Below are positions 526-20,280 of a DNA stretch of 28,655 nt, one piece after another (the first letter of the stretch is position 1; every line of letters starts with the position of its first letter). The stretch is from IMG/VR virus record IMGVR_UViG_3300025098_000213, positions 1 to 28,655 of that record; one strand, written 5' to 3'. Source of the DNA: a virus. The position numbers were made by a program, and so were the translations under genes. The notes below the pieces were generated by a model. The model was not told the DNA's origin. It searched no databases and was given only the letters and a program-made list of their open reading frames with translations.

Positions 526-3500
526 TAGAAAGTACTACTCCAAAGAAGTGGGTTTCGGATAAAGACGAGCGCCTGCTTGGTCCAGGCGAAATGATTTTCG
601 CTCAGAACGTCATAGTCTCCGAGAGAGGTGGTGGCTCTGTAGGTGTCATCAAGACGATGAAGGGGACCACTAGCATCAACCCAGTTACAGCGGAGAGCGG
701 AACTGACACCAGCGCTTGGGAGGTTTCAGGATCGGTTGCTGACAATCAGAGAAACTACCTCTACCTTTTCGTCAATGACGAAGCGTCGGGTGATAGCGGG
801 AGAATTGTAAGGGTTGATGCAGAGAATTCAGAGTGGAAGACAGTTCTGTCTAATGGCATCTCCCTGAAGAGAGGTAACCACGTAGTTGGCACCGTCATCA
901 ACAAGGCCTTCCAGCAGGACGGTGTTGTTCAGACAGTTCTCTACTTCACAGACAATCACTATCAGCCATACAAGATAAATGTAGATAGAGCGCTCGCTGG
1001 TGATTACGACGACATCGACAATGATGAGTACCAGCGTTTTGCCATGCACACGATCAGAGCTGCGGCTTGGCAGATACCTAATGTTGGTTTTGAAACCGAC
1101 GAGGACTTTAATGGCAACAACTTCAAAAGTGATGTCTTTCAGTTCGCTGTCCAATACATCTACAAGGATGGTGAGGAGTCTGCGCTTAGCGGATATTCAA
1201 AGCTGGCCGTATCCCCATACCTGTCTAACAAAGGAACTAGCCTGATAAGCAAAGGGGCGGATACTGGCAATGTTTGCGTGATAGGAAACTTGTGGGGTTC
1301 GCTGTTTAGCGACAGGTACGCTGACGTAACGAAGGTGAGGCTGCTTGCCCGAATAAGCAACAACGATCCCTTTTACGTTCTCGATGATTTCGATCCGAGA
1401 GCGAACAAGACAAGGTACGTTGGAGGAAACTCTACGGTTGTCTACGACTCCACTACATACGAGTATAAGTTCTACAACGATCAGTACTACACCACAGTAT
1501 CCCAGACGACATCTCAGAAGATGTACGACAACGTCCCTCAGAAGGCAGAGGGCCAGGCGATTTCTGGAAACAGACTTATGTACTCCAACTACGAAGAAGG
1601 TTATCCGAATGTAGATCTAGGAGACGACATCACCTTCACGGTCACCTATGGAGAGGATACTACCGCTGGAGGTGTGTTTCACGTATCTGCAGCGGGAGCA
1701 GCTCAAAAAGCAATAAGAGTATCGGGAAGCTCTGTATCTGGAGAGACACCAGTCACTGCAGAAGGAGACCCCTTGAAAGGTGATGTTTTTGTGGATCTGA
1801 CTTCATCTGGGTTTGTGTGGCCTGGGAGTAATAACGCGAGCTCAACTGTGCCCGCTGGCACTGTGACTCGTATAGGTTTTACATACCAGCCAAGAGCCGA
1901 ATACCACAAAACAAGTACTGCGGGCGGCGGTGCTGGCATAACCCTCATTGAAGGAGCCTCTAATTCAGGCGGAGATACGTTTGACCTGAGGCTCGCATCT
2001 GTGTCTGGGGATAGCCTGAATACAGGCGTTAGCGCAACTTCTTTCACTGTAGATCAAGAATGTGTGTTCTTGCTTCAGTACACATCCGACACTGACGAGG
2101 ATGTGGATGACATTGCAACCAATATGAGATCTCAGCTTTCTGATGAAAGCGTAGAAGAGACAATGAGGTTTACTCGTGTGGGGTCGGGGACTGTCGGAGG
2201 CGTTATTGAAAATTCTACCGCGACAAGCGGGTCCTGGTCGAACGGAAACTCAGTCAACTTTGACAACTGCACTCTTGACGTCACTTTCGGTTTTAACGAC
2301 ACTGATGTTTCTGGGAGTAATGATGGAGATTTTGTTATAGAGCCGTATGTGAAAAGAATCAAAGTTATTCAGCACGAGGTAAGCGGGTTGGTTCTTGACG
2401 ATGCAACATACACTGATTATCCGACTATACAGGCCAATGTTGTGATCAACAACAACCAAATATCTTTTGGATCTCCTATAGACACGTATGTCAAAAACGG
2501 ATCTCAGAGTGTATTCTCTGTAGCCCCAACAGACTCATCATCATTCAAGGCTGGGTCTTCTCACGATTTTGGAATTGTCTTCTTTGATCAGTGGGGTAGG
2601 TCTGGGTTTGTGAACGAGATAGGTTCTGCATACATCGACCAAACAGGAGAGAGGGCGGCAGGAACTGGAAAGGGATCCGCTCAACTAAGAATAAACTTCC
2701 CTCAGGGCTTAAACTCTGTTGTGCCTGACTGGGCCTACTCATGGGCTCCAGTGTACGGAGGGTCTCAGTTTTCTAATGTCCTGCAGTATACAACGGGTGG
2801 CGCGTACATCGTTAAAGAAACCTCAGGCACCTACGCCTCTATCGTGGCGGACAAAAGAATTTATGTGTCTCTGAACACACTGGTTCAACACAAAGAGAAA
2901 ACATCATCCACTAGAGATTATTCCTTTACCAAAGGTGATATCTGCAGGGTGATAAGCTATAAGGATGCTGACACGGGAGTGAGAACTTTCCCGAGCACAA
3001 ACGAAAGCGGAGGAGGCATTATAGAGTTTGAGGTTCTTGGGGTTGAGACGTTAACTGCTGGCAATGGAAACCCTATTGAAGGAGCCTCTTCTAACGATCA
3101 GACTGAAGGACAGTTCTTGGTTTTAAGGGCTCCAGAGATTGAGGGTGGCTTTAGAGTGGACACTACTGGAGACGGAAGCCCAGATGCCAACCTTAAGTAC
3201 GAGGGGTTTGACTGGTTCTCAATGACGGGTGCTGCTTCTTATCCAGTAGACGTAAACCCTAACTCTGGAACCGCCACGAACTATTGGGGACAAGAGTGTG
3301 TCATAGAGCTTCTTACACCTAAGAAGTCTGCGGACACAAAAGTGTACTATGAGTTTGGAGTGCAGAAAAAACTGACAAACACCAGCAACCCTCTCGGAGC
3401 TAACTTAACACTGATCGATGGAGACGTCAGGCTAAGAACAGTCTCTTGCGTAACCCCAGAGTGGAACGGTGTAGATTCTTTCAACCAAGACGATCTTGAG

Positions 3501-4959: not shown

Positions 4960-6111
4960 ATGCTGGAAGCACTACACACTCTCATATCAATCATCTTCAG
5001 GGAAGCAGACCCTAATCTTACCTACGCGTTTGAACCCGTGACCATGGGCCTCATGGCGGGTAGCGCTTTGCTTAAGGCTCTAACTGGTAAGATGCAGTCG
5101 GGGATGCAATCCGATGCGTTCCGCGATCAAGCTGAGGCTGATGCGCTGCGAGCGAAGACTTCAATAGGGGAGGCAGACAGAATGATTGAGGCGGCGGAGC
5201 GCCGCAGAGCAGACTATGGTTTGGGGCCGTCCTTCACAGACCTAAGAAGAATGGTCATGGAGGATCCCACCTCTGACTACTTAAGGAGGGAGGCGGCCAA
5301 GACTGAAGCGAAGAATCTTGACGCTCTAAAGTATGGAGGCGCTAGATCTCTTGCTGCGGGAACTCAATCCGCTACTCAGCAAACACTAGACAACCTGTCT
5401 AAGATTGCCGCAGATGAGCAAGCAAGGAAGGCTCAGGGTCTTGGCGTCGTAGGAGCTCAAGAGCAGCGAGTTGCAGAACAGAAGCTTGTGGATGCCAGAA
5501 CAGACCTCACGCTCGGTAGAGGTATGCGTGCCGAGGGTTTGGCGCAGCAGTATGGATCGGAAGACATGATGAGGTTCGGAGATGTGCAGAAGAGAATGGG
5601 TAACCTTCAGTTCGGCAGTGACCTTATTGGGTCTGGAATTGACATCGCAATGCAGACTGATTGGGGTCAAGGCAAGGGTGCTGGAGGCGGACTCAAGAAA
5701 CTTTTTGGAGGTGGTGGCGGAGGCAACATTGAGAAAGCCGCTGAGTTGTTTGGAACAGGGGGTACAGGGGGTACTTCAGGCGGAGGTGGTGTAGACCTTT
5801 TTAGTGGGGCAGACCCTTACGCCCAGATTGACATCTTCGGCAGGAAGGAAAACGGAGGGAGAGTGACAGCCTTCAAGGAAGGAGGGGAACTGATGAGAGA
5901 CCAAGAAACTCCTGGGGAGTTCTCTCACAAAAACAACCCTATTGACATCATGCAAGACGGAGCTAAGATCGGAGAGATGACTGGAGGAGAAGGCATTGTG
6001 TCACCTGAAGACATGGGTGAATGGGAACAAGAAGCTGCTAAGGGGGACACTCCGCTTCACAGGAAAGTCAGAGCTTGGTTCAGAAAAATAAATCAAAAGG
6101 ATAATGGCTGA
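4960..6111 (+). CDS. Probable internal virion protein (383 aa)
   Basis: The ATG at 4960 lies 13 bases after the tail hub stop. An in-frame ATG at 5044 (MGLMAGSALLKALTG) is a credible alternative and would place a small hydrophobic segment at the N-terminus. The body is Ala/Glu/Arg-rich and helical with coiled-coil character (about 45-190), then a Gly-rich linker (about 245-290), then a compact C-terminal domain with NNPIDIMQDGAKIGEMTGGE and a basic end (HRKVRAWFRK). The 'NPI.I...G.KIGEMTGGE' pattern recurs in proteins next to tail and ejection genes of Bacteroidetes podoviruses. Size, composition and location between the tail hub and the giant protein suggest an ejected internal virion protein analogous to T7 gp14. 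There is no enzymatic motif. The stop overlaps the next start by 8 bases. Confidence 0.55.
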   Translation: MLEALHTLISIIFREADPNLTYAFEPVTMGLMAGSALLKALTGKMQSGMQSDAFRDQAEADALRAKTSIGEADRMIEAAERRRADYGLGPSFTDLRRMVMEDPTSDYLRREAAKTEAKNLDALKYGGARSLAAGTQSATQQTLDNLSKIAADEQARKAQGLGVVGAQEQRVAEQKLVDARTDLTLGRGMRAEGLAQQYGSEDMMRFGDVQKRMGNLQFGSDLIGSGIDIAMQTDWGQGKGAGGGLKKLFGGGGGGNIEKAAELFGTGGTGGTSGGGGVDLFSGADPYAQIDIFGRKENGGRVTAFKEGGELMRDQETPGEFSHKNNPIDIMQDGAKIGEMTGGEGIVSPEDMGEWEQEAAKGDTPLHRKVRAWFRKINQKDNG

Positions 6112-7675
6112 TTCAAGAGGGACAATAGCTGGGCTAGGTCGATTTAATCGCCCGACTCAGTCTCCGTATGCCAAGGAGTACATGAAGGGCATGCAGCAGA
6201 GTAATCTCGCTGCGGGTTCAGCACTAACAGATTTTGCCAAGAAGTTCGGAGAGATCAAAACGCAAGAGCGTAAGGCTCTTACGATGATCCCAGACGCTGA
6301 CTTCTCAAGCGACCCAGCGGTATCATCTATGTTTGCCTCTGACGCCCAGGGGATTAAAGACAAAATTAACGGAGGTGTAGAGGGTGCATACAATTTCGCT
6401 GACGAGGCTGATATCCTGAGGTTTAACAATGACGTAGCTAATTTCCAGAAAGAAATAACAGAGGCTGAGACTATATATGATCAATCAATCAAGGGGTTTC
6501 AGGACTTAGAAACTGCGCACGACTACTTTGTCAAGACTGGGGCAGATCCCAGGCAGGCACCTACCGAAAACATCAAGGGTGTCGGTGAGGTTTACAACGC
6601 CAAGATTGGGATGCAAGCTTTCGACGACACGATGGCAAAAGCCTCAGCTTTGAGAGAAGGCGAGATGAAGAAGCAACCTGATGGAAGCTACGTTCTTGTA
6701 GGTAAAGGAGGTCAAAAGCTAGGTGAATACAGGTCTAAAGAGGAGTACTTCAAAGAGTTAGCTGAGCTCTCAAAGCCAGACCTCCAGCCAGTTCCTGTCA
6801 TCGACGGATTGAACTTTGCCATAGAAGAAAAATGGGCTACTCAGTTTGACACTAGAAGTAAGGCTGAGTCAGCTGCGTTGACCTATGTACTAAACAACCC
6901 TGCTATCGCAGACAGAAGAGCTCGTGAAGTCATGGGGGTCTCTGAACTAGCTGAGCAAGGTGAGATGTCTGAAGAGGCTAAAGCCATGCTTGCGAAGCAT
7001 CCAAACGCATCGGCTAGATTTGATTCGGTGTCTGATGCACAGCTCGCTTACGCAAAAGAGATTGTTCAGGGGTGGGAAGACCTCAAGAAAAAGGAAGCGG
7101 CACCAAAGGCTACAGCAACTCAGACTGCGAAAGCACAAGAGAAAAGAAAGAGAAAGGACGCCGCCATGGAGTCTATCAGGGTTGTGGGAGATGAAATCCA
7201 GAACGCTGTTCGTGGTGGAGGGTTGTTTGAGGCTGTTGTTGGGTCTGGTAATATAGAGCCTGGCACAACTGCCCCTGGAGAGAAAGTTACCTTCCCCTAC
7301 TCGCTTGATGACAGCATTCAGGTTACCGACGAGGATGGCAATGAGCTCGACTTGAAAGTCACGCAGTTTTCTTACGATGTTTTCGGAGACAAGATTCAGC
7401 TGATAGGAACAACATCCAAGTCCAGCTCCCCTGGTCAAGCGGAAACGATCGTAGACAAAAGAGTCACGATTGACGGATCAAATATCGATCAGATCGCCAA
7501 GTTGGATCAACTCTTAAACATGGAGTACGGCGTAAAGCTAGCCGAATTATTTCGTAAATTTACATCAGGCGAATACCAGATGGCTCCAGACTTTCAGGGT
7601 CGTACTACCCAGGAAGAAATTAACGCAGCGATGGGTCGAACAACTACAAGTCCAACAGGCGGCATAGCACGATAA
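6104..7675 (+). CDS. Probable internal virion protein (523 aa), unrecognised
   Basis: I do not recognise a named domain. The protein is soluble, with no membrane segment. The first two-thirds are strongly helical and charged, and a Lys/Ala/Gln-rich coiled-coil stretch lies around residues 322-360 (KKKEAAPKATATQ, then KAQEKRKRKDAAM). The last third looks β-rich and hydrophilic (VTDEDGNELDLKVTQFSYDV). Its start overlaps the end of the 383-aa gene, and it ends 3 bases before the giant protein starts, so it belongs to the same transcript. By analogy with podovirus late clusters (tail, small internal protein, mid-size internal protein, giant ejection protein), it may be the counterpart of T7 gp15. 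This rests on position and composition only. Confidence 0.5.
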   Translation: MADSRGTIAGLGRFNRPTQSPYAKEYMKGMQQSNLAAGSALTDFAKKFGEIKTQERKALTMIPDADFSSDPAVSSMFASDAQGIKDKINGGVEGAYNFADEADILRFNNDVANFQKEITEAETIYDQSIKGFQDLETAHDYFVKTGADPRQAPTENIKGVGEVYNAKIGMQAFDDTMAKASALREGEMKKQPDGSYVLVGKGGQKLGEYRSKEEYFKELAELSKPDLQPVPVIDGLNFAIEEKWATQFDTRSKAESAALTYVLNNPAIADRRAREVMGVSELAEQGEMSEEAKAMLAKHPNASARFDSVSDAQLAYAKEIVQGWEDLKKKEAAPKATATQTAKAQEKRKRKDAAMESIRVVGDEIQNAVRGGGLFEAVVGSGNIEPGTTAPGEKVTFPYSLDDSIQVTDEDGNELDLKVTQFSYDVFGDKIQLIGTTSKSSSPGQAETIVDKRVTIDGSNIDQIAKLDQLLNMEYGVKLAELFRKFTSGEYQMAPDFQGRTTQEEINAAMGRTTTSPTGGIAR

Positions 7676-7678
7676 ACA

Positions 7679-10600
7679 ATGAACGAAAACGAACAGCTTC
7701 TAAAAGACTACGTAGCAACGTGGGATAAGTATCAGGATTGGGATACGGTCAATTCGAAGTTCCCAGAGTTTGCGGACACAGACTCTCAGATCCTTAAGGA
7801 TTACGTGGCAACTTGGGAGAAGTATCAGGATTGGGATCAGGTAAACGAGAAGTTCCCAGAGTTTTTCTCTCAAAAAAAAAAGGATGGTCCATCCGAATCG
7901 GACGTCTCTCCATCTCTTGGAGCAGGAACTGAACCTGGGAGCCTAGGCTGGACCTTAACTAAGTTCTTTGGCAAGATGTCCCCCAACATGGGGATTAAGA
8001 TGGGGGCCTACGAAATGGAAGCTGAGGAGAGGAGGTTGGCTGAGGCTGGACTTCTTGAGGACTTCAACAGGTATGATTTTGGTGGACTTGACGTAGACGC
8101 TATCACGAGGTCAGCTCAGATAAAGGCTGAATCTCAGGCCCCTGAAATTTATTCGGCCCTGGGGAGTGATCAAGATTTTCTGGATGGCCTTGCTCTCATA
8201 GAGAGTAAGAAGGCTGGTGACAAGATTGCCGTCGGAACTAGCTATGCAGGGTATGGAGCTGCCTACACCCCCACGCAACACCGAGGTCTGACGCAAAAGG
8301 AGATCGATGAAGAAAGAGAGAACTTCATAAAGGAGGCCTATACGAACAAATTTACGGAGTTCAATCAGGGGTCTCTTAAGGAAGAGATTTTGAGCCAGCT
8401 TACACCAGAACAGAGAGCAAACAAGGAGTTCCTCTCGATGCTGTCGGATAAGCTGTACTATCACGGAGAACTGAATGTGGACTTAGATGGTGATGGTAGA
8501 TACAACGACCAACCCCTCATACAAGACATGGTCACGTCGATAGACATGAGTTTTACTGGATTGGCTCAGGGGGTTGCGCTTCCTGCTGTGATGCCTTTTC
8601 TAGACGAAGAGCAACAGAAGGCACTGTTCGATCACATGAACGATGCCGACGAAACCGCTGGAAGAACTATGACGGTAACCGAGGACGGGATTTCGGACTC
8701 TTACCTCAACGGAGATTTCGTAAACGGAACCAAGCAGCTACTTACTGGTGTTGCTGGAGCGGCTCCAAGTATTGCGCTAGGTATGACTGGCTTTGGAGGA
8801 GCTGCTGCCTTGGGTGTTAGCGGTGGTTTCAAGTCCTACGCAGAAGTGGCTTACGACGAAGAATTCACTAATGACTTGGGTAAGTATGGATATGCCATTG
8901 CTAACGGCGTAGGAGACTTTGCGTTTGCTCGGATCGGCACTTCCATCTTCAAAGGCGCTGAACAGGCAGCTTTGAAGTCTTACACGACGGCAGGGTTGGC
9001 TAGAAAGAATGGTCAGATGTTGACTATGGATATGATTAAGGGGTACGGATACAGGAAGGGGATTGCTTTTTCCTCTGAGTTCCTTGAAGAGGCGGCCACT
9101 GAACTAACGACCAGCTACTTTTCTGCGATCGGAAAGGGTGAAAAGTTTGACTTGGCCTCCGAGATTTCTGGCGTGATCGATGCTGGCCTAATCGGTGGCT
9201 TTGCTGGTGTAAGCGTTGACACAGCAGGTAATACATCTGGTAGAATTAAAGCCGCAGCAAACGCACGAGCAAACGCAGCGGCAGAGACTCAGCGTCAACT
9301 CGAAGCTCAAAAAGCACAGCTTCAAAAGAAGCTTGCTGGGTACGCGACGGGAGACCCAAGAACTCAAGATCTTCAGGCTGAGATCAGCAGAATTGATTCT
9401 GATATTGAGAGCATCGTGAGAGGAAGGCAGGACTTCTATACCATGATGAGCGTTCGTCACGAGGCTGACTTTGAGCAGATGCAGCTGCTTGACGCAGAGA
9501 TTGAAAGGATGGCGTCAGCCGCCAACAAAGAAGGAGTTACTGAAGAAGAGCGTTCTGTTCTGTTGGAAAGAATGGAGGGTGTAGTCAAACAGCGTATTGA
9601 GCTGCAGCAAAAGCATATTGGCGAAGACGTATCTCTCACTGAAGAGGAGTCTGACCTGATGTTCGGGAAAGCCCTGAAGGACGGACTGTCAGCAATCGAC
9701 GATGAAGTAGATAAGGCGCGTAATGCGGTCACTATGTTGAGAGATAGACTTGGAACGCAAGACCCTCCTTCTCAGTCAGCATTGGATACAGCAGAGAAAG
9801 CTTTGCAAGATGAGGTCGGTAGAAGAAAAACTGTTCAACAGTTGATGGGTGAACTTGACGCTGCTAGATCTGAAGCTAGGTCAGCAAGAGCTGAGGCCGC
9901 AACAGAGGGCGGAGACATCGAAGCCTTTAACGAGGCTATGGAAAATGTAGTGTTGCTTGAGGGAGCCCTGGCTGAAGTCGCTGGTGTTGACAGCAAGATA
10001 GTTGCAGGCCCATCTCGATTCGTAGGGGATGTGCTTGACATCAACGCTCAGATCGCAAACAGAGCCACCAGTGAGTGGACTGAGGCCAACATCGAGGCTA
10101 TGCAGAACTCAGGCCTCACGAAGGAACAGGTAGAAGCAATCCTCCAGTCTGAGAACTACGCAATGGTTACGGCTGAGAACCCCAATGCAAGGGCAGTAAG
10201 CGATAAGTCTAATGAAGCCAACAACAAGAAAGCAGAGGAGTACCTAAAAAAACTAGGACTTAAATACCACAAAATTGTGGGTCGCTATGGTAACGGAGAG
10301 AACAGCTTCCTTGTGGAAGGTATGACGAGAGAGCAAGCTTCAGAGTTTGCACGTCAGTTCGATCAGGAATCAGTAGCGCACAGAGAGGGACTCGTCCTTA
10401 GAGACGGGAGCATGCAGGTGTTTGGAGAGGGAGTTGACTTTAGTGGCGACCTTGACAATTACTTCAGCGCCATCAAGGATGCCGAAGGAAATGTCGTAAG
10501 GTTTGCCAAGCCTCTTTCTGAGAAATACGTAGACAAAGAAGGCAACGAAATTACCAAGCAGGAATATGAAGGCCGCATAAAGGACCTTGAGTCAAACATG

Positions 10601-13600
10601 CAGGCGATTGAGAACTACATTGTAGAAAAAGTTCAAGAAGCCCAAAAAGAATCAGAGGATCAGAAGGCTACAATAGATCAGAAGAGTGGTCTCCCAGAGG
10701 GGGCCGTGACAGTGAATCCTAAAGCGGGTGTCAAGATGGGTGAGGGCGGTGTTCTCAACAAGAACGAAGCCAGAACGATTAACAATCTTTTTAAGCTGTT
10801 CCAATCTCTCTACGGGTCAGAGGCTAGAATGGTTCTCATGCCTGAGGGATCTCAATCCTATATGGGTGAGGGGAATGGTGGTTTGTTTTTCGACAAGAAG
10901 GACGGAGTTCCAACCATTTTTGTGTCAGCATCTCAAGTTAGAATCAACGCAGCTAGCGAGGCTTCTCAAGCTAAAGAGCAGGGCGCGGAATACAGAACAA
11001 AGTCATTTTCCGAGACTGTCGTAGAGGAGGTCGGGCACGCAGCTATCGGGCCAGGCTTTCAGCAGCTGACAGATACTCAGCAGCAAGCCATGGAGAGGAG
11101 AGCTTTTGAGATCGCGGGCAAGGCCAGAGATGGCGGTGCTCTACTCAACAGGCTGATCGCAAAGAAAGATACTTACACGAGCGAGGGGAAGGACCCAAGA
11201 ACTGTAAGAGAAGAGGTCGTCATGGATCTCCTCTCAGCCTTGTCTGGCGGGTCTTCAAATGTAAACCTCGGTATCGCAGATAGCGTTATGAGACTCTTCA
11301 ATGAGATCTTGGTGAAGGCTGGCATGGCCAAAGACATGCGCTTGAATGATCCAAAATCTATCTTCCGTGTAGCTGCACAGCTTAACGCGGCAAGAAAGAC
11401 TGGTGATACATTCTCCGCCGATGTAAAGTCGAATCCAAGAGAGGAATCTAAAGCCTCTGGCATGGTGAAGCCATTAGGCCTCAAGCCTGGGGAGGACGGT
11501 AAGGTTAAGATAAAAATGCTTGAAGCTTTTTACTCTTACAAGAATGGCCTCAAGAAAGACATAGGTAGTAAGGAAGTTACGAAGGAGTTTAATGACAAGT
11601 ACCACTTCATCAACTGGTGGAAGAAAGTAACTAATTCTGGCGCTGACACACACTACTCCAGATTCCAAACTGAGGATGGTAAGACCATCGACACCAGCGT
11701 AATCAACAAGAAACGCAGAGAGAGAGGTAAGCCATCTAGCGATGTTGTTAATATGTCTCTTGAGGTGTACAAAGAAAGAGTGCTTGAAGCCGAGAGGCAG
11801 GGGTTGATCGATGCAGCTGCGAAGCGCATGATGCTCAACAACTACTACAAGGTCAAGAGAAGATACAATTCGGAGAAGGATTCCTACGGACTCAACTACG
11901 AGAGCTACGTTCAGAATATGAACGACAAAGCTGAGGCGATGCTAAAGAGCGCTAGCGATAGAACAGGCGTTGACTTTAACTTCGAAGAAGATTCACCAGA
12001 GGGCAAGGCTTCCTACGCGCTTAAGCTTGACCTGAGAAAGAGAGGTCAGTACCTTTCTTTTGAAGAGAAGGCTAAGTTTATGGAGATGCGATTCGGCATT
12101 AGATATGACGCTGGAAACAAGGCTCTTACTAGAATGTTCCACTCATCTGTAGCTAAGGAGGAGTACGGTATTGACTACGACAACCAATCAGAAGGTGAAG
12201 TAATCCAGAGAACCACTGATGCCTTGACTGGTCTCATGAGATCGTACTACGGAAGCGTTGGCGAAAGAGCAAGGGTGTTTGGATCAGACCCCACTGAGTT
12301 CTTCGCTAAGGATAAAGAGCAAGCTCAGATTGACGTAGACAATATGCTGAGAGCTATGGGGGGTGTGATAGACTCCTCCCCAGAGGGCTTCCTTGCTGCT
12401 TATCAGTTTGTAAAGTCGATGACATCTGTAGGCAACAAAGCCAAGCCAAATATCGTTCTCGCAAAACAAGTGATGCTTGAGTCCGCTAGATGGAGAGATT
12501 CTGGAGGGAAGACGTATATCGACCCTAGGATAATTCAAGACATCAGAGAGGGATCTGATTCTGCTGGTTTTGATGTGAAAGGAGTTCCAGGGAAGACGAG
12601 AAAAACCATTGCTGATAATCTTGACAAACTAAACAGAGAAGTCGCTAAGTATCAGAATGAAGATGGAACCTACAAGTTAGTAGAGTTTCTTGACGCAATG
12701 AACCAGGTAGACGGAGAAAAACAAACCTCTCTGTTCCCGTCAGAAACTGGCCCGAAAAGATTCGTCGCTCAAAGAGTGTTCTCGGAAAAGGTAGGCGCAT
12801 TCGCTCTCAACCTGAATGGCAACAATGACGCCATGACAATCGATAGCCACATGGGTAGAACGCTTCTCCAGTTGATGGGAAGATACAATACCATGGAGAG
12901 CGTCATGGACAGGTATAGAGAAACGCTTGCTGAGATGGTAGACATGCCAGTTCCCACGGATATATTTGAGTTAGCGGAATACGACAAGAAACTTATCGAC
13001 AAAGCTGGAGAGCTTGCGATGAGATCAGAAGAACAGCTTCAGAGGAGGATTGAGCGAATGCTTGAAAACATTACTGGAGAGGACAAACCAATCCCAGTAG
13101 AGTATAAGCAGCGCAGGATTATGGAGGCTGTTATTGCTCAGTCCGCTGAAGAAATGGACATGAGTATCGCAGAGTTTACTCAGCTCTTGTTCGCTGATGG
13201 ACAGGTCATGAAAGGAGCTAACGACTTTAGACCAGCTGGGTATAGCGATTTTGCTACAGCTGCGGAGCAGGCCAGGCTTGAAGAAGACATGACATTCTCT
13301 GAGCGAAGAGAGGCTAGATTGACCAGACTTATTGTTGAGGCCAACAACGTAGCTGCTGCTGAGGGTGTTAATAGAAAGAACACGAAGGATTACCTAGAGT
13401 CAGCAGAGTCAGGAGTCATAGATCCAACTATGGAAGCCAAGGCTTCAATGCAGCTGTCGCTCCCATTCAATAAGAATCAAAATGCTGAAGACTCAAATCT
13501 ATACAGGAAGAGATCAGCTGAAGAAGCTCTGACTGTTAAGTCAGGAATGAGGCTTAGTGACCGAAAGGTCATGGATGCCCTTGGAACCGACGCCACTTCA

Positions 13601-16600
13601 AGAAGAATTTTAGGTAAGAACTCTCAAATTACTGAGGGTCAACAAGTTGGGGTTAGGCTAAACCTCAATGTCATGAAGAACACTGGGGTGCCAGTTCAGA
13701 CTATGCACGACAAGAATGCGACAGGGGAAGCTCTCAAGTACGCAGCAGTCGTGACCGTGAAGAATCCTGTACTCGCTGTGAATCAGAATGCACGTCGCAA
13801 GATCCTCTCTTTCCAAGAGAACAAGTTCCCAATGGCTAGTGTCAACGGGGGGTTCCTTACGGATAAGATCTCAGAGTCCAGCTTCGACGGAGTCAAGGCG
13901 TTCTTCAATCCATTCAAGCATAACGTATTTGTAGACGCTCAGGGCCGACCAATCAAGAGCGCAGGGGAAGCCACTATCGTTGGCAACACAGTGTACCTGA
14001 GAGGAGACATTGAGTACTACGATTACAACGACCCGATTTTGAAAGAGGGTAGAACCGAGAGCGCAGAACAGAGATCGAAGAGAACTGAGCGCGGACCTAA
14101 GTACGATAAGGCTCTGAAGAGATTCAAGGCTTACTCCGAAAGAGTTCTAGGATTGCAATACGCCAACGACACAGACCTGCAGGAAGCTTATGACAATATG
14201 ACCTTCACTTCTCAAGTTGCTCTTGACGAAAGCGATGCTGCATCGAGAGCTGAAGAAGCTGAAGCACGAGCCTCGGCAAGACTTATGATCAGGAGAACAG
14301 CAGGTAAAGCCGCTAGGAAGTACGGTGCTGTACGGGAGCAAATATTACAAGACCCAAGAAACTACTTCTCTAAGCAAAGCATTGCCAAAGAGAAGGAAAA
14401 TCTTGGTAACATGTCTGATCAAGAGCTCATCGATATAATGACTGATGACGCTTTGGGTAGGCTGCAAAGCAGAAACGATGACATGGGAGTGCTCGCTTCT
14501 GCGGAAATGATCAAGCGTGCTGTAGCGAGAGGTGACATGGATGCCATCCCAGGAATCGTAGCTGAAGCCGCAGCCATGGGGACAACAGCGGGTAGGCTGC
14601 TTCGTCACTTCCGTGAGCTTAAGAACTCTACACCGAAGGGAATCATTGAAACTCTTAAAAAGGAAATCGAGCTTAGAGGAAGAACCCTCAACGAAGCGCA
14701 AGAGAAACAGCTTAGCGGCATAGCCTCTGAATTGTTCAGGCTTCAGGCTGAGGTAGAAGAGCTCATGAAGAAGGGTGCTCAGGGAGAAGATGTAGACGCG
14801 GAACTCAAAGCGAAAGTAGCTGAGTTAAAGGAAGCTGAGCGAACGATGGATACGTTTGCAAACAAGATGATCGAGAGGAACTGGAATGAGATCGGTTCTA
14901 TGCTTATTCAGGGCAACCTGCTTACTCCTATGTCTCAGATCACAAACGTTGGAGCTAACATCATCAACGCAATCGGGCAGATCGGAGTTGATCTGGTGGC
15001 ATACCCAGTAGAGAAGTTGATTAAGATCTTTGACAAGAACTCTGACCCAGTTAGACGGCCGTCTTTCTCTGCGTACATGTATGGCATTAGAAAGTTTGGC
15101 AGCGGATTCATTGAGTCGCTTAATGAGGTTGTCACTGGTCAGTCTCAAGATGTGACTGAGTGGAGAATCAACAGAGGGTTTATGCCCTTCAGGTCTTTGA
15201 CGGCTGCTGTATCTAATGATGGTTTGCCGCTCATGATGGATGGAGAGCCCACGAAAATTGATAGCCAAAGGGTCAAGCTGTTTGTTCAGGGGACACTTGG
15301 TGTCCCTGCTGAGATCATGTTCAGGCTCCTGTCTGTCGGTGACACTCCATTTAGAAGAATGTTTGAAGGCATTGAGCTTTACGAGCAGGCAAACGAGCTC
15401 GGTCTAGAGGGAGAGGCTAGGGATAACTACATCAAGTACCCAGGGAAAAGAGCTCAGCAAATCGCAGAGTCTCGGGGTAGAAGAATAACCTTCCAGGAAG
15501 AGACAGTAGCCTCTAGAGCTGCTGATGAGTTTGTTGGGATACTCGAAAGACTTTTCGACGGTATACCTGGCATGGATGGTAAATTCTTGGTGAGAACCTT
15601 CATCCCTTACAGAAGAACTCCAGCAAATATCCTGTATGAAACCCTTACTTTCGCTGCCCCTCCAGTAGCTATCGCTAGGGCTTACAATGCTATGTCTAAC
15701 GGAGACAGCAAGGAGGCTTCTCAGAACATTGGTAAGGCTTTGATTGGGGGAATGGCTTCCACTACCGCTATGATGCTTATCAAGGAGGGCCTGCTTAGCG
15801 GGCCAGTTGACTACGGAGATGATGAAGAAAAGAACTTGATGTATGATCAGTTCCCTCCGAATAGCATTAACGTTACTGGATTGCAAAGACTTATGAACGG
15901 TGAAGATCCAGCAAAGCAAACTGACGATTACTTCATTTCGTACAACAAGCTTGGTATTATCGGAGCCATCTTCGGCGCTGTAGCAAAGGGAACATCAAAG
16001 CAAGAACTAATCGAGCGTGGAGATCAACCTCTAGTTACACATACTATAGCTGACGCATTTGGATTGAGAGCATTCTCAACCATGTCTCACATGATGGATC
16101 AGAGCTTCCTTCAGGGTGTGCAGGGATTGACTGGTATCTTGTCTGCGGCCACAGAGTCTGAGTGGGAGAGGGCAGCTGAGAATTGGTTTAAGAGCGTGTG
16201 GCAGGCAACGACAGCCACAGCTCTTCCTAACACAATGTCAGCTCTTTACAGGTCTCACAGGGAATATCTTCCAGACACAAGGGTGACCAAAGACATGGAT
16301 GTCATGGAGAGGTTGTGGACCAAGGCCAAGTACACAGTTATGGACAGGACGTTTGGCTTGAGCGATGTGCCAGTAAGAGTAGACTGGAAAGGTAATCCGA
16401 TCAAACAGACTCCAAGGGGTGCGAATGGGTACATGTATCAGCTGTTTGACATCACAAAGGCTAGGCAGGGTCAAGCAGATCCAGTCTCTAATGAGATGTA
16501 CAGGCTGTTCGAACAAACGGAAGAGTTGCCTAGAGCTCTGGGTACGCCAAGATTTGCAAGCACATCTCAGGTAAGTGTTCCAGATGTAATCAGCAGAAAG

Positions 16601-16927
16601 GACAAGTACAGAGCTCAAAGAAGCGGAGTTGATTTTTCCTGGATGGACGACGAAGAGTTCATGAAAGAGAAGATTAGACTCAATGTGGAACAGATCAACC
16701 GCATGATGGCGGTGGCAGGTAAGGCTAGATACAAGGAGCTCGAAGACCTTATCAACGCAAACAAGTACGTCAAGGCGACGGACGAAGAGAAGATAGATAT
16801 GATGGACGACCTCAACAGAGGGTACTCAAGAGCGTGGTCCTACGACGGAAACAGACTCGCTCCCCACACAGTGGAGCTTTGTAGAATTCTAAACGAGATT
16901 TATGAAGGAAGGAAGAAAGAAGATTAA
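7679..16927 (+). CDS. Giant polyvalent-type internal virion/ejection protein (3082 aa)
   Basis: This single 9.2-kb reading frame encodes several apparent modules. Residues 8-31 and 39-62 are a near-identical 31-aa-period tandem repeat, followed by an A10 tract. About 353-385 and 495-512 are Gly/Ala-rich hydrophobic segments that could contact membrane. About 520-800 is coiled coil. Residues 1110-1190 resemble a zincin fold with the motif reading EEVGH (1116-1120) instead of HExxH. About 1701-1730 (SEKVGAFALNLNGNNDAMT) resembles the DUF7178-type region of phage polyvalent proteins. About 1985-2110 includes GVRLNLNVMKNTGVPVQT. From about 2400, NLLTPMSQITNVGANI and later IPYRRTPANI match hallmark stretches of large polyvalent-protein-associated domains. 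It is probably packaged and ejected with the DNA, like T7 gp16. The module calls are by eye. The last 26 bases overlap the holin gene. Confidence 0.7.
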   Translation: MNENEQLLKDYVATWDKYQDWDTVNSKFPEFADTDSQILKDYVATWEKYQDWDQVNEKFPEFFSQKKKDGPSESDVSPSLGAGTEPGSLGWTLTKFFGKMSPNMGIKMGAYEMEAEERRLAEAGLLEDFNRYDFGGLDVDAITRSAQIKAESQAPEIYSALGSDQDFLDGLALIESKKAGDKIAVGTSYAGYGAAYTPTQHRGLTQKEIDEERENFIKEAYTNKFTEFNQGSLKEEILSQLTPEQRANKEFLSMLSDKLYYHGELNVDLDGDGRYNDQPLIQDMVTSIDMSFTGLAQGVALPAVMPFLDEEQQKALFDHMNDADETAGRTMTVTEDGISDSYLNGDFVNGTKQLLTGVAGAAPSIALGMTGFGGAAALGVSGGFKSYAEVAYDEEFTNDLGKYGYAIANGVGDFAFARIGTSIFKGAEQAALKSYTTAGLARKNGQMLTMDMIKGYGYRKGIAFSSEFLEEAATELTTSYFSAIGKGEKFDLASEISGVIDAGLIGGFAGVSVDTAGNTSGRIKAAANARANAAAETQRQLEAQKAQLQKKLAGYATGDPRTQDLQAEISRIDSDIESIVRGRQDFYTMMSVRHEADFEQMQLLDAEIERMASAANKEGVTEEERSVLLERMEGVVKQRIELQQKHIGEDVSLTEEESDLMFGKALKDGLSAIDDEVDKARNAVTMLRDRLGTQDPPSQSALDTAEKALQDEVGRRKTVQQLMGELDAARSEARSARAEAATEGGDIEAFNEAMENVVLLEGALAEVAGVDSKIVAGPSRFVGDVLDINAQIANRATSEWTEANIEAMQNSGLTKEQVEAILQSENYAMVTAENPNARAVSDKSNEANNKKAEEYLKKLGLKYHKIVGRYGNGENSFLVEGMTREQASEFARQFDQESVAHREGLVLRDGSMQVFGEGVDFSGDLDNYFSAIKDAEGNVVRFAKPLSEKYVDKEGNEITKQEYEGRIKDLESNMQAIENYIVEKVQEAQKESEDQKATIDQKSGLPEGAVTVNPKAGVKMGEGGVLNKNEARTINNLFKLFQSLYGSEARMVLMPEGSQSYMGEGNGGLFFDKKDGVPTIFVSASQVRINAASEASQAKEQGAEYRTKSFSETVVEEVGHAAIGPGFQQLTDTQQQAMERRAFEIAGKARDGGALLNRLIAKKDTYTSEGKDPRTVREEVVMDLLSALSGGSSNVNLGIADSVMRLFNEILVKAGMAKDMRLNDPKSIFRVAAQLNAARKTGDTFSADVKSNPREESKASGMVKPLGLKPGEDGKVKIKMLEAFYSYKNGLKKDIGSKEVTKEFNDKYHFINWWKKVTNSGADTHYSRFQTEDGKTIDTSVINKKRRERGKPSSDVVNMSLEVYKERVLEAERQGLIDAAAKRMMLNNYYKVKRRYNSEKDSYGLNYESYVQNMNDKAEAMLKSASDRTGVDFNFEEDSPEGKASYALKLDLRKRGQYLSFEEKAKFMEMRFGIRYDAGNKALTRMFHSSVAKEEYGIDYDNQSEGEVIQRTTDALTGLMRSYYGSVGERARVFGSDPTEFFAKDKEQAQIDVDNMLRAMGGVIDSSPEGFLAAYQFVKSMTSVGNKAKPNIVLAKQVMLESARWRDSGGKTYIDPRIIQDIREGSDSAGFDVKGVPGKTRKTIADNLDKLNREVAKYQNEDGTYKLVEFLDAMNQVDGEKQTSLFPSETGPKRFVAQRVFSEKVGAFALNLNGNNDAMTIDSHMGRTLLQLMGRYNTMESVMDRYRETLAEMVDMPVPTDIFELAEYDKKLIDKAGELAMRSEEQLQRRIERMLENITGEDKPIPVEYKQRRIMEAVIAQSAEEMDMSIAEFTQLLFADGQVMKGANDFRPAGYSDFATAAEQARLEEDMTFSERREARLTRLIVEANNVAAAEGVNRKNTKDYLESAESGVIDPTMEAKASMQLSLPFNKNQNAEDSNLYRKRSAEEALTVKSGMRLSDRKVMDALGTDATSRRILGKNSQITEGQQVGVRLNLNVMKNTGVPVQTMHDKNATGEALKYAAVVTVKNPVLAVNQNARRKILSFQENKFPMASVNGGFLTDKISESSFDGVKAFFNPFKHNVFVDAQGRPIKSAGEATIVGNTVYLRGDIEYYDYNDPILKEGRTESAEQRSKRTERGPKYDKALKRFKAYSERVLGLQYANDTDLQEAYDNMTFTSQVALDESDAASRAEEAEARASARLMIRRTAGKAARKYGAVREQILQDPRNYFSKQSIAKEKENLGNMSDQELIDIMTDDALGRLQSRNDDMGVLASAEMIKRAVARGDMDAIPGIVAEAAAMGTTAGRLLRHFRELKNSTPKGIIETLKKEIELRGRTLNEAQEKQLSGIASELFRLQAEVEELMKKGAQGEDVDAELKAKVAELKEAERTMDTFANKMIERNWNEIGSMLIQGNLLTPMSQITNVGANIINAIGQIGVDLVAYPVEKLIKIFDKNSDPVRRPSFSAYMYGIRKFGSGFIESLNEVVTGQSQDVTEWRINRGFMPFRSLTAAVSNDGLPLMMDGEPTKIDSQRVKLFVQGTLGVPAEIMFRLLSVGDTPFRRMFEGIELYEQANELGLEGEARDNYIKYPGKRAQQIAESRGRRITFQEETVASRAADEFVGILERLFDGIPGMDGKFLVRTFIPYRRTPANILYETLTFAAPPVAIARAYNAMSNGDSKEASQNIGKALIGGMASTTAMMLIKEGLLSGPVDYGDDEEKNLMYDQFPPNSINVTGLQRLMNGEDPAKQTDDYFISYNKLGIIGAIFGAVAKGTSKQELIERGDQPLVTHTIADAFGLRAFSTMSHMMDQSFLQGVQGLTGILSAATESEWERAAENWFKSVWQATTATALPNTMSALYRSHREYLPDTRVTKDMDVMERLWTKAKYTVMDRTFGLSDVPVRVDWKGNPIKQTPRGANGYMYQLFDITKARQGQADPVSNEMYRLFEQTEELPRALGTPRFASTSQVSVPDVISRKDKYRAQRSGVDFSWMDDEEFMKEKIRLNVEQINRMMAVAGKARYKELEDLINANKYVKATDEEKIDMMDDLNRGYSRAWSYDGNRLAPHTVELCRILNEIYEGRKKED
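7700..7864 (+). repeat. Tandem 31-codon repeat at the N-terminus of the giant protein
   Basis: Two copies encode LKDYVATW, KYQDWD and KFPEF in the same order, at residues 8-31 and 39-62, with a period of 93 bases. The DNA copies differ at several bases, many of them synonymous, so this looks like an old duplication kept by protein-level selection. The unit is short, aromatic and acidic, and could be a binding or packaging module at the exposed end of the protein. Confidence 0.85.
7872..7881 (+). other. A10 homopolymer within the giant gene
   Basis: Ten consecutive A residues encode the end of a Gln codon and three Lys codons (residues 65-68) immediately after the tandem repeat. Gain of one A would lead to a stop after about 20 further codons, and loss of one A to a stop after about 24. 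Slippage during transcription or translation would therefore release a short product made of the repeat module alone. No stimulatory structure was identified. Confidence 0.6.
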
Positions 16928-17342
16928 GAATACGAAGCTTGGGGCTTGGCTTAAAGAAAAGGCGCCAGGAGTACTCAGCACCGTAGGGGATCTGCTACCA
17001 GATAGCGGAGCCCTCGGTGTGGTTAAAAACCTGCTCGACAAAGAGCCAGGTGTAGATCCAGCCGAAGCTAAAGCAATGTTGGATGCTGAGGTTGCTTACC
17101 AGAAGGAAGTGTCTAGAAGGTGGGAGGCTGACATGAGCAGCGATGTAAAGCTCGCAAAACTCATTAGACCAGTCACTTTGATCTGCCTTATGGTGATGTT
17201 TATGGCGACTATGATAGCGGATTCCATTGATAATCTGCCATTTAACGTCAAAGATTCTTATGTATCTTTGCTTGAAATCCTTATGTTGACAGCCTTCGGC
17301 GCTTACTTCGCTGGAAGAACTATAGAAAAAGCTAGGAAATAA
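16902..17342 (+). CDS. Holin, 3-TM GTA-type family
   Basis: This 146-aa protein begins with a basic amphipathic segment (KIKNTKLGAWLKEKAPGVL) and a VGDLLPDSGALGVVKNLL region. It then shows the family pattern SRRWEADMSSD followed by KLAKLIRPVTLI. Two clear hydrophobic segments follow, about residues 88-108 and 121-138, ending in a Gly/Arg-containing tail (AGRTIEKARK). This matches the family called 'holin of 3TMs, for gene-transfer release', well represented in Bacteroidetes elements. It would form holes in the inner membrane at lysis. The ATG at 16902 overlaps the giant gene by 26 bases. No later in-frame Met would keep the conserved N-terminus, so this start is preferred. Its stop overlaps the next start as TAATG. 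Confidence 0.8.
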   Translation: MKEGRKKIKNTKLGAWLKEKAPGVLSTVGDLLPDSGALGVVKNLLDKEPGVDPAEAKAMLDAEVAYQKEVSRRWEADMSSDVKLAKLIRPVTLICLMVMFMATMIADSIDNLPFNVKDSYVSLLEILMLTAFGAYFAGRTIEKARK

Positions 17343-17632: not shown

Positions 17633-19297
17633 CTACGCCTCACACACTGCGCAATTTAAGATATCTCTACCAACAGCTTGCGCCTGGTTGACACCGCGTT
17701 GATAGTACAGGGTCTTGATACCCAGCTCCCAAGCCTTGATAACCAGTTGATTGATGTCCTTCAAGGGTACCTCGTCGCTGATCATGACGTTAAGTGACTG
17801 ACCTTGATCAATGTACTTCTGGCGATCTGCAGCTTGCTGCACAACCTCCATCTGAGAGATCTCAGCAAACGTCTTGAATACATCCTTCTCGTCCTGTGTA
17901 AGGAAGTCTAGATGCTGTACTGATCCACCCTTCATCATGATGTCCTTCCATGTGGCTGCATCATCCTTACCCTTCTCGGCAAGTAGGTCTTTGAGGTATG
18001 GGTTCTTGTATGTGAACTTACCCTTAGCCAAATCCTTTGTGAAGTAGTTAGACTGCAGTGGCTCAATAGACGGAGACACCTGACCGAGGATGAACGAGGA
18101 AGAGGTAGTGGGGGCTACTGCCATGCGTGTGCTATGACGTAAGCCATAACCCTTGAGTACCTCTGGCTCACCACCCATCAATGCCAACGCCTGACTCATC
18201 TTGTCAGATGAATCTTGGATGGATCGGAAGATGGACCTGTTCAGGCCACGAGCCATGACGCTCTCGAATGGGATGCCCTTGCTCTGCAGGTACGAGTGGT
18301 ACCCAAGCACTCCGATACCGATGGACCTGTGCTCCTCCGCAAAACGAACAGCCTTCTCCATGAACGGTAGATCCTTAGCCTTGTCTACGAACTCAGTGTA
18401 TACTGCGTCAAGAAAGGCTGTCATGATCTGCACAGCGTCAGTTCCCTTCCAGTCGTCGTAGTGCAACGCATTCATCGAAGACAAGCAGCACACGAAAGAC
18501 TTGGTGTCGTCAGTGTACTCCATGATCTCAGCGCACAACTGTGAGTGCTTAATCTCCATACCCTTATCTACGTAGTAGTCTGGGCGATCTTTGTTCACGT
18601 TGTCACGGAAGAAGATGTATGGGTAACCTGTCTCACTGCGCTTCTTGTGGATCTTGGCCATGATAGAGCGCTTCTCTTGGTCGCCACGGACCATGTCCTT
18701 CATCCAGTCGTCTCCGATGCACACTGCAAACGACACGTCCTGAATGGGATGCCCCTCGCTGCGGATCTGCAAGAACTCCTCGATGTCTGGGTGTTCTACG
18801 TCTAGGTATGCAGCCCAGCTACCACGACGAACCTTACCCTGCGAGATGATGTTAGTCGTTGTGTTGAACAACTCCATCATGGACACTGCTCCGTTAGTCT
18901 CTCCGCCTGTGCTAATCTTAGCGCCACGAGGACGCAGGTTACCGAAGTACGTAGCCGTACCTCCACCCACTTTACTCATGGCTCCAATCTCTGCAGCACC
19001 ACGCAAGATGTCGAACGTATCGTCCTGAACTGTGGTCCCGAAGCACGAGATAGGCAGGCCTTTGTTCTTGCCGAAGTTCACCCACACTGGGGTGCTCAGA
19101 CTAAACCATCCACGGCTCATGTAGTCGTAGAACGTATCGGCGAAGTTGTCGAACGCCCCTTCCATTGTCTTCTCAAGGATCGCCTCTGCGTGATCGGCAA
19201 TCTCTCTCACCCTCTCTTCGACCGTCTGGCCAGGGTCGAGGTAGCCCTTCTCCATAAATTGTCGGGTCTCTTCTGTGACCCAGTAAAACTCTTTCAT
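17633..19297 (-). CDS. nrdA: Class I ribonucleotide reductase, large (catalytic) subunit
   Basis: The protein reduces ribonucleoside diphosphates to deoxy forms for phage DNA synthesis, together with NrdB. It is 554 aa, much shorter than the E. coli or T4 enzymes (about 750 aa), and lacks the N-terminal ATP-cone, so dATP overall-activity control is probably absent. Visible residues are C85 (LPISCFG, redox Cys), C255 (QLCAEI, thiyl radical site), E257, C270 (FVCCLSS, second redox Cys), the Y531-Y532 radical-transfer pair (TLYYQR) and the C-terminal CAVC pair (C549, C552). PTTSSSFILGQVSPSIEP is the usual substrate-site loop. The position equal to E. coli Asn437 is Gln253, which is unusual. The start overlaps the nrdB stop as TAATG. 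It is the last gene of the leftward operon. Confidence 0.93.
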   Translation of the reverse strand: MKEFYWVTEETRQFMEKGYLDPGQTVEERVREIADHAEAILEKTMEGAFDNFADTFYDYMSRGWFSLSTPVWVNFGKNKGLPISCFGTTVQDDTFDILRGAAEIGAMSKVGGGTATYFGNLRPRGAKISTGGETNGAVSMMELFNTTTNIISQGKVRRGSWAAYLDVEHPDIEEFLQIRSEGHPIQDVSFAVCIGDDWMKDMVRGDQEKRSIMAKIHKKRSETGYPYIFFRDNVNKDRPDYYVDKGMEIKHSQLCAEIMEYTDDTKSFVCCLSSMNALHYDDWKGTDAVQIMTAFLDAVYTEFVDKAKDLPFMEKAVRFAEEHRSIGIGVLGYHSYLQSKGIPFESVMARGLNRSIFRSIQDSSDKMSQALALMGGEPEVLKGYGLRHSTRMAVAPTTSSSFILGQVSPSIEPLQSNYFTKDLAKGKFTYKNPYLKDLLAEKGKDDAATWKDIMMKGGSVQHLDFLTQDEKDVFKTFAEISQMEVVQQAADRQKYIDQGQSLNVMISDEVPLKDINQLVIKAWELGIKTLYYQRGVNQAQAVGRDILNCAVCEA

Positions 19298-20280
19298 TAA
19301 AATAATTCTTCTGCGGTGAAACTCTTGGTGCTCTTTGCGTAGTCGATGGGCTTCTTGTGGAAGAAGTCAGACAGGGCAGAAGCATACACCTCCTCATCCA
19401 TCCATGCTGTCACCTCTAGCTCGTCTTGGTTCACGGGGAACTCAAAGGCAAAGCCGATGCGACGCATGCTCTCGTTCACACGATTCTTCAAGTAGTTGTT
19501 TAAGATAGACTCGCTAAGGAACTCATTATCAAAACCTTGCAAGATCCACTTAATCAATCCGCTCTCTGCGTCGAGGGCTACTTGCGCCTCTTCCAAGATG
19601 CGTGACTCCAGGTCAGCGTCGAACAACTCAGGGTGCTCAGCTCGGATCTGATTGACCAGAGCCATGCCTCCCTCTGCGTGCAGATTCTCTTCTTTGCTCG
19701 TGTACTGCACAACGTTAGCCGTGTCCTTGAGAACAGCCTTGAATCTATTGAATCCAAGGATGGTGTAGAACTGGCTGAACAGTGACACGTTCTCAGTGAA
19801 GAGGGTAAAGAGGATGAGACTGTACAGGAACTGCTTACGATCGTCTTCGTATACGCGATCAACGTACTTGTTGAGATAGTTAACGCGGTTCAGTACAGGC
19901 TCATTCTCCAGGAGCGTCTTGAACTCGTCCTCCAATCCGAGCTTCGTCAGGATCTCTGAGTAGGCACGGGAATGGACTACTTCAACGCCTCCAAATACAG
20001 CCCCCATGTCCGCAATCTCTGGCTTAGGCAGATGCTTACCAATGTTCGACCAGTATGACTTCACTGCCACTTCAACCTGCGAGATGAGAAGGATGGCGCG
20101 TTTGATCACATCGCGCTCCTGCTCGGTCAGGCTCGTATGGTAGTCCTGAACGTCAGCCTTGAAGTTAAATTCATTGTGAGTCCAGTGGCTTGCCCACATC
20201 GCGTTGATGAGTGGGTCAGTGATTTCAGAATAGTCGAAGGGCTTGTAGCTCAGCCTCTTCTCAAAGATTGAGGTAGTCAT
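19297..20280 (-). CDS. nrdB: Class I ribonucleotide reductase, small (radical) subunit
   Basis: This 327-aa ferritin-like subunit generates the radical used by NrdA. The metal ligands can be placed as E70 (QVEV), E100 and H103 (GVEVVH), E163 (FTENV), and E198 and H201 (ENLH). A candidate radical tyrosine is Y107 in HSRAY. The first ligand is Glu where E. coli NrdB has Asp84; a Glu here is also found in other class I small subunits. The C-terminal tail ends SFTAEELF and is expected to dock into NrdA. The gene precedes nrdA with a one-base stop/start overlap. A 40-base gap separates it from the upstream nuclease gene; no promoter motif was seen there. Confidence 0.93.
   Translation of the reverse strand: MTTSIFEKRLSYKPFDYSEITDPLINAMWASHWTHNEFNFKADVQDYHTSLTEQERDVIKRAILLISQVEVAVKSYWSNIGKHLPKPEIADMGAVFGGVEVVHSRAYSEILTKLGLEDEFKTLLENEPVLNRVNYLNKYVDRVYEDDRKQFLYSLILFTLFTENVSLFSQFYTILGFNRFKAVLKDTANVVQYTSKEENLHAEGGMALVNQIRAEHPELFDADLESRILEEAQVALDAESGLIKWILQGFDNEFLSESILNNYLKNRVNESMRRIGFAFEFPVNQDELEVTAWMDEEVYASALSDFFHKKPIDYAKSTKSFTAEELF

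Follow-up and report, generated by a model that had tools for sequence, protein, structure and literature searches.

The 3082-aa protein encoded at 7679-16927 of a 28,655-base virus record (the window, that is, the whole stretch of DNA analyzed here) is, as a whole, probably a polyvalent ejection protein that delivers a swappable counter-defence domain. A sequence-only reading had proposed an ejection protein at the gp16 position fused to effector domains; this core idea was supported and the observation as a whole was partly confirmed, but the evidence named for it is mostly not what carries it. It had overlooked a DUF3293 domain (residues 815-940) and the relationship of the C-terminal part to internal virion protein D.

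An intact giant gene in a podovirus-type structural cluster

The following genes make up the structural cluster of the window and its immediate downstream neighbour:

522-4946, + strand: 1474-aa virion structural protein (phrog_14478), upstream of the giant gene; homologue of phi38:1 gp97 and elemo gp25
4960-6111, + strand: 383-aa protein, homologue of the virion structural proteins phi38:1 gp99 and elemo gp23
6104-7675, + strand: 523-aa protein directly upstream of the giant gene, in the place of T7 gp15 (by position only)
7679-16927, + strand: 3082-aa giant ORF (ejection/polyvalent-type protein), with 23 homologous loci and intact ORFs in relatives
16902-17342, + strand: 146-aa holin overlapping the end of the giant gene (phrog_3427, 3.3e-21)

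The giant gene is a single uninterrupted frame, as originally described, and full-length homologues were found in independent contigs. Its relatives occupy 23 IMG/VR loci, where they are single ORFs of 2975-3284 aa except for copies cut by contig ends, and like the giant they stand last in a podovirus-type structural cluster; none was found in bacterial genome contigs. Compared with L002, the closest distinct relative (74% identity), dN was 0.19 with synonymous sites near saturation, and the gene is under strong purifying selection. Given this selection and the full-length homologues, the frame is not a chance ORF, and the giant is a real gene of a phage group seen in environmental contigs. 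Per 50-residue block, identity within the clade was 54-84% from residue 1951 to the end, compared to 24-56% before residue 1951.

Profiles of the 1474-aa and 383-aa proteins matched gp97 and gp99 of Cellulophaga podovirus phi38:1 and gp25 and gp23 of Flavobacterium Elemovirus, all of which are annotated as virion structural proteins, and in Elemovirus the place of the giant is taken by a 3694-aa protein annotated "structural protein; DUF3293". These matches and the position of the elemo giant identify a podovirus-type structural module of Flavobacterium/Cellulophaga-type phages, so that the podovirus-like late cluster noted earlier stands, with homologous structural genes upstream and a holin downstream. 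Profile searches (Pfam, PHROG) assigned no family to the 523-aa protein. The 1474-aa protein (522-4946) additionally showed a sub-threshold match to the C-terminal domain of the crAssvirus muzzle protein (1.3e-3). On the other strand lies a convergent cluster of ribonucleotide reductase, primase/helicase and exonuclease genes, with the large and small ribonucleotide reductase subunits at 17633-20280 (minus strand, convergent with the structural operon).

The C-terminus resembles internal virion protein D

The terminal parts of the giant contain the following features:

7697-7870, + strand: N-terminal tandem repeat, two copies of ~27 aa (residues 7-33 and 38-64), read from the translation
8726-9358, + strand: Gly/Ala-rich, moderately hydrophobic N-terminal module (residues 350-560), from profile homology and hydropathy
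14909-14968, + strand: conserved motif QGNLLTPMSQITNVGANIIN (residues 2411-2430), from the clade alignment
15287-16552, + strand: region of homology to internal virion protein D of T7-like phages (residues ~2537-2958), from tblastn and profile search, with the motif IPYRRTPANILYE (residues 2642-2654) inside it

When residues 2002-3082 were searched by tblastn against all phage records, the best matches were internal virion protein D of Pelagibacter phage HTVC011P (7e-4) and of Desulfovibrio phage ProddE (9e-3), together with proteins of the Roseobacter phages CRP-361 (2e-5) and CRP-125 that lack annotation there; the matching gene of CRP-361 has the same operon place as the giant. A profile of residues 2420-3082 matched HTVC011P, ProddE and CRP-361 with sequence E-values of 2e-10 to 2e-9 and T7 gp16 weakly (0.12, in its C-terminal part, residues 1106-1180 of 1318), these values coming from an 11-sequence set and needing to be scaled, whereas the tblastn values are calibrated. 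Because the calibrated values coincide with a matching genomic position, the C-terminus of the giant (residues 2540-2943) is likely homologous to internal virion protein D, the gp16 class. This homology lends direct sequence support to the ejection-protein assignment, which had been made from the T7 gp16 position and now has both the C-terminal similarity and the operon place behind it. The lytic transglycosylase that is N-terminal in T7 gp16 had no Pfam match in the giant. Two motifs formerly taken as polyvalent-protein hallmarks, NLLTPMSQITNVGANI and IPYRRTPANI, both occur in the giant and hardly vary across the clade alignment, and IPYRRTPANI falls inside the internal virion protein D homology region.

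At the other end of the protein, the tandem repeat reported previously was found again in two copies, and the Gly/Ala-rich hydrophobic segments are likewise present but only modestly hydrophobic (best 19-residue Kyte-Doolittle mean 1.40). A profile of the N-terminal module (about residues 350-690) matched the N-terminal part of elemo gp21 (6.8e-10) and, weakly, the 1691-aa structural protein gp101 of Cellulophaga phi38:1 (2.6e-5), both in an 11-sequence database.

An exchangeable cassette slot

9956-10678, + strand: variable cassette slot (residues ~760-1000), holding cassette A, B, C or none in different relatives

Cassette A (DUF3293) was carried by seven members of the tree, including the window phage, cassette B by eight and cassette C by four, while the remaining four (L003, L004, L006 and L017) had no recognised cassette; L028 and L029 were read as two further B carriers in the tree analysis. 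Cassette B is a ~130-aa domain with GTWFD...YNQKAV motifs and is possibly PII-like, and cassette C, GNAT-like by eye only, is found in Microbacterium phages as well, within their minor capsid proteins (1e-18). We rejected cassette B as a SAM lyase, since its match to cassette A spans only 24 columns, it has none to the T3 family, and the Glu is not kept.

The flanks of L010 and L012 on either side of the slot share 91.6% DNA identity over 10.7 kb and 89.1% over 6.5 kb, yet L010 carries B and L012 carries C, and between the junctions their sequences show no similarity. A tree built from the conserved C-terminal half requires seven or more changes of cassette label, and well-supported sister pairs differ in their cassettes (L010/L012, L022/L023+L013 and L019/L009). 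Residues ~760-1000 are a recombination slot, with cassette exchange shown among close relatives. The L010/L012 segments (L010:10645-11105 and L012:11795-12386) amount to a clean in-frame swap of non-homologous domains inside one ~3200-aa ORF, and this natural swap between near-isogenic phages offers a ready comparison of the effect of each cassette. New effector domains had been expected in the uncharacterised middle of the protein (about residues 1200-2400); the recognised effector domain sits at 815-940 instead.

Cassette A and the SAM-lyase superfamily

10121-10498, + strand: cassette A, DUF3293/SAM-lyase-superfamily domain (residues 815-940), from the PF11697 match, the PF23780 matches of sister domains and the fold
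10280-10288, + strand: Gly868-x-Tyr870, counterpart of SAM-lyase Gly56/Tyr58, by alignment
10298-10306, + strand: Glu874-x-Ser876, counterpart of SAM-lyase catalytic Glu69 and Ser71, by alignment
10364-10369, + strand: Gln896-Glu897, counterpart of SAM-lyase Gln104/Glu105, by alignment

The window cassette matched PF11697 (DUF3293) at 2.9e-13 (50.6 bits versus a curated cut-off of 25). It had no direct Pfam match to PF23780 (S-AdoMet_lyase), a family that matched the same stretch in two relatives (5e-6 and 1.8e-5). Across 23 diverse copies of cassette A, DUF3293 was detected in 23/23 and PF23780 in 18/23 (best 1e-7), with the L054 domain reaching 29.6 bits (cut-off 28). The AlphaFold model of the cassette showed a beta-alpha-beta-beta-alpha-beta fold (pLDDT mostly 85-97), and a fold search against predicted viral structures (BFVD) returned at probability 1.00 a set of 128-142-aa proteins, mostly from T7-like phages, as well as the elemo protein, an ART-PolyVal-like protein and a DUF3293 protein. 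Four of the small matches from T7-like phages, picked from their genomes by gene length and early position, were retrieved; all are PF23780 proteins (1e-11 to 8e-34) encoded by early-region genes, two of them at the very start of the region, and the early protein of Pasteurella phage PHB02 matched DUF3293 (0.003) in addition to PF23780.

In SAM lyases the conserved SAM-binding residues are Gly56, Tyr58, Glu69 and Gln104, with contributions from Ser71 and Glu105 (Svi3-3 numbering; Guo et al., PMC7877911), and all six have counterparts in the window domain. Aligning the DUF3293 cassettes with SAM lyases left exactly L, G, E and Q as invariant columns. Identity to L002 was 81% in cassette A compared to 65-71% in the neighbouring parts, and purifying selection acts on the domain. 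Relatives of cassette A in IMG/VR all lie inside large ORFs of 1323-4394 aa (some cut by contig ends), most of them 3000-4400 aa.

Several comparisons gave no signal. The cassette A family and the T3 SAMase family alone did not match significantly by hhalign, though the catalytic residues line up, nor by hmmsearch; no SAM lyase came up when the multi-domain model was compared with PDB folds; queries of PDB sequences with the full-length giant, each of the three cassettes or the wider A6 alignment yielded chance-level matches only; and an NCBIfam search returned nothing informative. Membership of cassette A in the SAM-lyase superfamily is nevertheless strongly supported by the family profiles, the aligned residues and the modelled fold, and there is moderate support from the same sources for its predicted catalytic competence, while this evidence says little about the substrate.

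If the giant were instead an ordinary structural ejection protein, the whole chain would serve as scaffold and channel, and the cassette would be a sensor or a structural PII-like domain devoid of lyase activity. A role as a channel would suit both the hydrophobic segments near the N-terminus and the C-terminus of internal-virion-protein-D type, PII-like trimers in many cases do no more than bind ligands (PMC7877911), and the four relatives lacking a recognised cassette indicate that it is not essential for the particle. However, cassette A retains all the substrate-contacting residues, and the repeated swaps for unrelated domains, together with a cassette type common to minor capsid proteins of unrelated phages, look like effector turnover, which makes a purely structural role improbable in our judgement.

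Two observations on annotation adjoin these results. A methyltransferase cassette was considered from phrog_2226 "SAM-dependent methyltransferase" annotations and dropped, as these are probably misnamed members of the T3 gp0.3 family; T3 gene 0.3 (L069:901-1359) encodes the T3 SAM lyase and itself bears that name, a label that has spread through many phage annotations. In Myxococcus phage Mx1 (L086:3197-4876), the gene immediately upstream of the one for the tail sheath encodes a 559-aa hypothetical protein containing a DUF3293-type match (6e-5).

Candidate substrates at DNA entry

A cell normally contains on the order of 1e5 SAM molecules. The annotated copy number of T7 gp16 is about 3 per virion, and Svi3-3 turns over at ~9.5 per second (PMC7877911); at these values, an entry dose could therefore clear a scarce messenger or act locally, but would exhaust the SAM pool only over about an hour.

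Bulk SAM depletion like that of T3 SAMase, serving anti-restriction, anti-BREX or unmethylated phage DNA and acting late as well as on entry, would agree with the superfamily and catalytic residues that cassette A has in common with T3 SAMase, the first T3 protein made, which lowers host SAM and whose anti-restriction role is itself disputed (PMC8406200). A late structural gene, however, would deliver few copies, probably too few at ~3 per virion for a quick drain, and we consider bulk depletion rather unlikely.

Another candidate is a virion-delivered SAM-AMP lyase, an entry-time anti-CRISPR cleaving the SAM-AMP messenger of CorA-type III CRISPR. SAM-AMP is a plausible target because CorA-linked type III systems have a strong association with the Cytophaga-Bacteroides-Flavobacterium group (PMC10600005), the group infected by the cousin phages. 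Only the Glu and Gln are structurally common to SAM and SAM-AMP lyases (PMC12255297), and the counterparts of catalytic Glu71 and Gln108 of the SAM-AMP lyase (C. botulinum type) are both present as E874 and Q896. Between Tyr and Glu the window cassette has a loop of only 3 residues, compared to 10 for Svi3-3, and it is the longer loop of SAM lyases that would collide with the AMP moiety of SAM-AMP (PMC12255297). A few injected copies could also suffice for a scarce messenger, though hardly for the whole SAM pool. On the other hand, the strictly conserved T-loop residue Cys66 of SAM-AMP lyases has no equivalent, the stretch from G868 to E874 being free of Cys in every member of the A6 alignment, which argues against the known SAM-AMP-lyase subgroup, and a search of bacterial genomes found no relatives of cassette A, including standalone ones near CRISPR loci. 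On balance, we judge a dedicated SAM-AMP lyase to be unlikely.

An altered zincin-like module and further domains

10691-11428, + strand: zincin-like module (residues 1005-1250), by homology to the HExxH module of elemo gp21 (5e-11)
11024-11038, + strand: E-E-V-G-H motif (residues 1116-1120), in which the first ligand His is replaced by Glu, by alignment
12341-12958, + strand: conserved region (residues 1555-1760) with TSxGxxxxPN and TxDsHmxR motifs, by alignment; formerly the "DUF7178-like" stretch
13628-13996, + strand: PF25735 Phage_L5_gp82/phrog_586 domain, GVRLNLNV (residues 1984-2106), from Pfam and PHROG

The zincin-like region postulated earlier is recognisable and aligns with the elemo HExxH module, but its first ligand is Glu throughout the clade and no zincin Pfam profile matched at E <= 1 in the giant or 14 relatives. 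In one alignment, EExxH was found in 25/25 clade members and HExxH in 2/2 Flavobacterium-phage cousins, with E1117, H1120 and the distal Glu E1179 invariant in both. A fold search of the first multi-domain model against the PDB gave nothing at E <= 0.001, with MATCAP, a zincin, appearing only at E 0.6-1.3. Since the altered residues are strictly conserved, decay seems less likely than a putative metal site that was kept and possibly re-specified. Among elemo-type giants scanned, 12/14 hold HExxH somewhere in the chain, and the pairing of a SAM-lyase-type domain with a zincin therefore looks like a recurring architecture. Elemo-type giants of up to 4394 aa (L043-L066) have DUF3293 with HExxH upstream or downstream of it, the rest of their length being free of annotation.

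The GVRLNLNVMKN-type domain picked out by eye proved to be PF25735 (Mycobacterium phage L5 gp82)/phrog_586, matching at 2.6e-8 (34.2 bits versus a curated cut-off of 27) and present in 14/15 clade members examined. PF25735 also occurs as small separate proteins of 238-300 aa in the phage contigs L030, L032 and L033. For residues 1555-1760, the DUF7178 label is not supported, because no DUF7178 Pfam match at E <= 1 was obtained in the giant or 14 relatives, and the TSxGxxxxPN and TxDsH motifs are lost in part of the clade. On the idea of an HhH-GPD glycosylase, suggested by the TxDsH motif, a PDB fold search of the second multi-domain model was neutral, giving nothing at E <= 0.001 and only terpene-synthase helical noise.

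Proposed mode of action

We propose that the giant serves as a composite ejection protein in a podovirus whose relatives are Flavobacterium/Cellulophaga phages, and that its chassis consists of the N-terminal helical/hydrophobic part and the C-terminal internal-virion-protein-D-type part. The chassis would travel inside the capsid and be driven into the envelope or cytoplasm ahead of the DNA, and the slot between its parts would hold one interchangeable effector, here a PII-like domain of the SAM-lyase superfamily with its catalytic residues intact. The cassette may work as soon as DNA entry begins and cleave SAM or a SAM-derived immune messenger such as SAM-AMP, so that host defence would be blunted before any phage gene is expressed; given the few copies per particle, a scarce messenger would be a more plausible target than SAM. 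SAM lyases function as trimers whose active sites lie at the subunit interfaces (PMC7877911), and an enzymatic role is weakest on two counts, this trimer requirement and the low number of copies delivered. A more specific version, which we put forward as a rather doubtful proposal, combines a virion-packaged SAM-lyase-superfamily enzyme that destroys SAM-AMP (or SAM) at entry from an exchangeable slot, its cassette chosen by the arms race, with the conversion of an ancestral HExxH protease site into an EExxH metal site that is strictly conserved.

Comparison with known systems

Polyvalent proteins, ejection proteins and SAM lyases are each already known; the literature searched, coverage of which was incomplete, yielded no account of an ejected protein with a SAM-lyase-type domain and no paper naming DUF3293. 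Like polyvalent proteins (Iyer et al. 2017, PMC5512222), the giant combines several unrelated globular domains in one late phage protein with a zincin-like module, and some of its relatives carry a GNAT-like cassette. At least two unrelated globular domains characterise such proteins, and the giant has regions of the DUF3293/SAM-lyase, PF25735 and internal-virion-protein-D types; it is also encoded with late structural genes, as they are. Its differences are the altered metal motif in place of an HExxH zincin (the commonest domain there, not obligatory), the lack of any LPD domain (common, not obligatory), with no Pfam match to LPD profiles at E <= 1 in the giant or 14 relatives despite the earlier assignment, and the fusion to an internal-virion-protein-D chassis. 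The text of PMC5512222 does not mention SAM lyase or DUF3293.

The nearest named counterpart, gp21 of Flavobacterium Elemovirus (vB_FspP_elemoA_7-9A, 3694 aa), shares the operon position, the N-terminal module (6.8e-10) and the zincin module (5e-11), and its cassette A domain is 44.5% identical to that of the window; it differs in keeping HExxH and, in the same profile search, in having neither PF25735 nor a detectable internal-virion-protein-D C-terminus. Proteins of the internal virion protein D/gp16 class (HTVC011P, ProddE, CRP-361 and T7 gp16) resemble the giant in late-operon position and in a homologous C-terminal region of ~400 residues (T7 gp16 itself being matched only weakly), but are 1230-1318 aa long compared to 3082 aa, and no zincin module or PF25735 was detected in them.

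With the phage SAM lyases (T3 gp0.3 and Svi3-3; PF23780), the window domain shares the predicted fold and the conserved Gly, Tyr, Glu and Gln, which gives DUF3293, so far a family of unknown function, a home in a superfamily whose mechanism is understood. Those lyases are small free enzymes, early in T3 and the first protein expressed there, whereas the window domain forms part of a late giant protein and its Tyr-Glu loop is far shorter. A copy in an ejected protein would act before transcription, the stage at which restriction, BREX or CRISPR would otherwise decide the infection.
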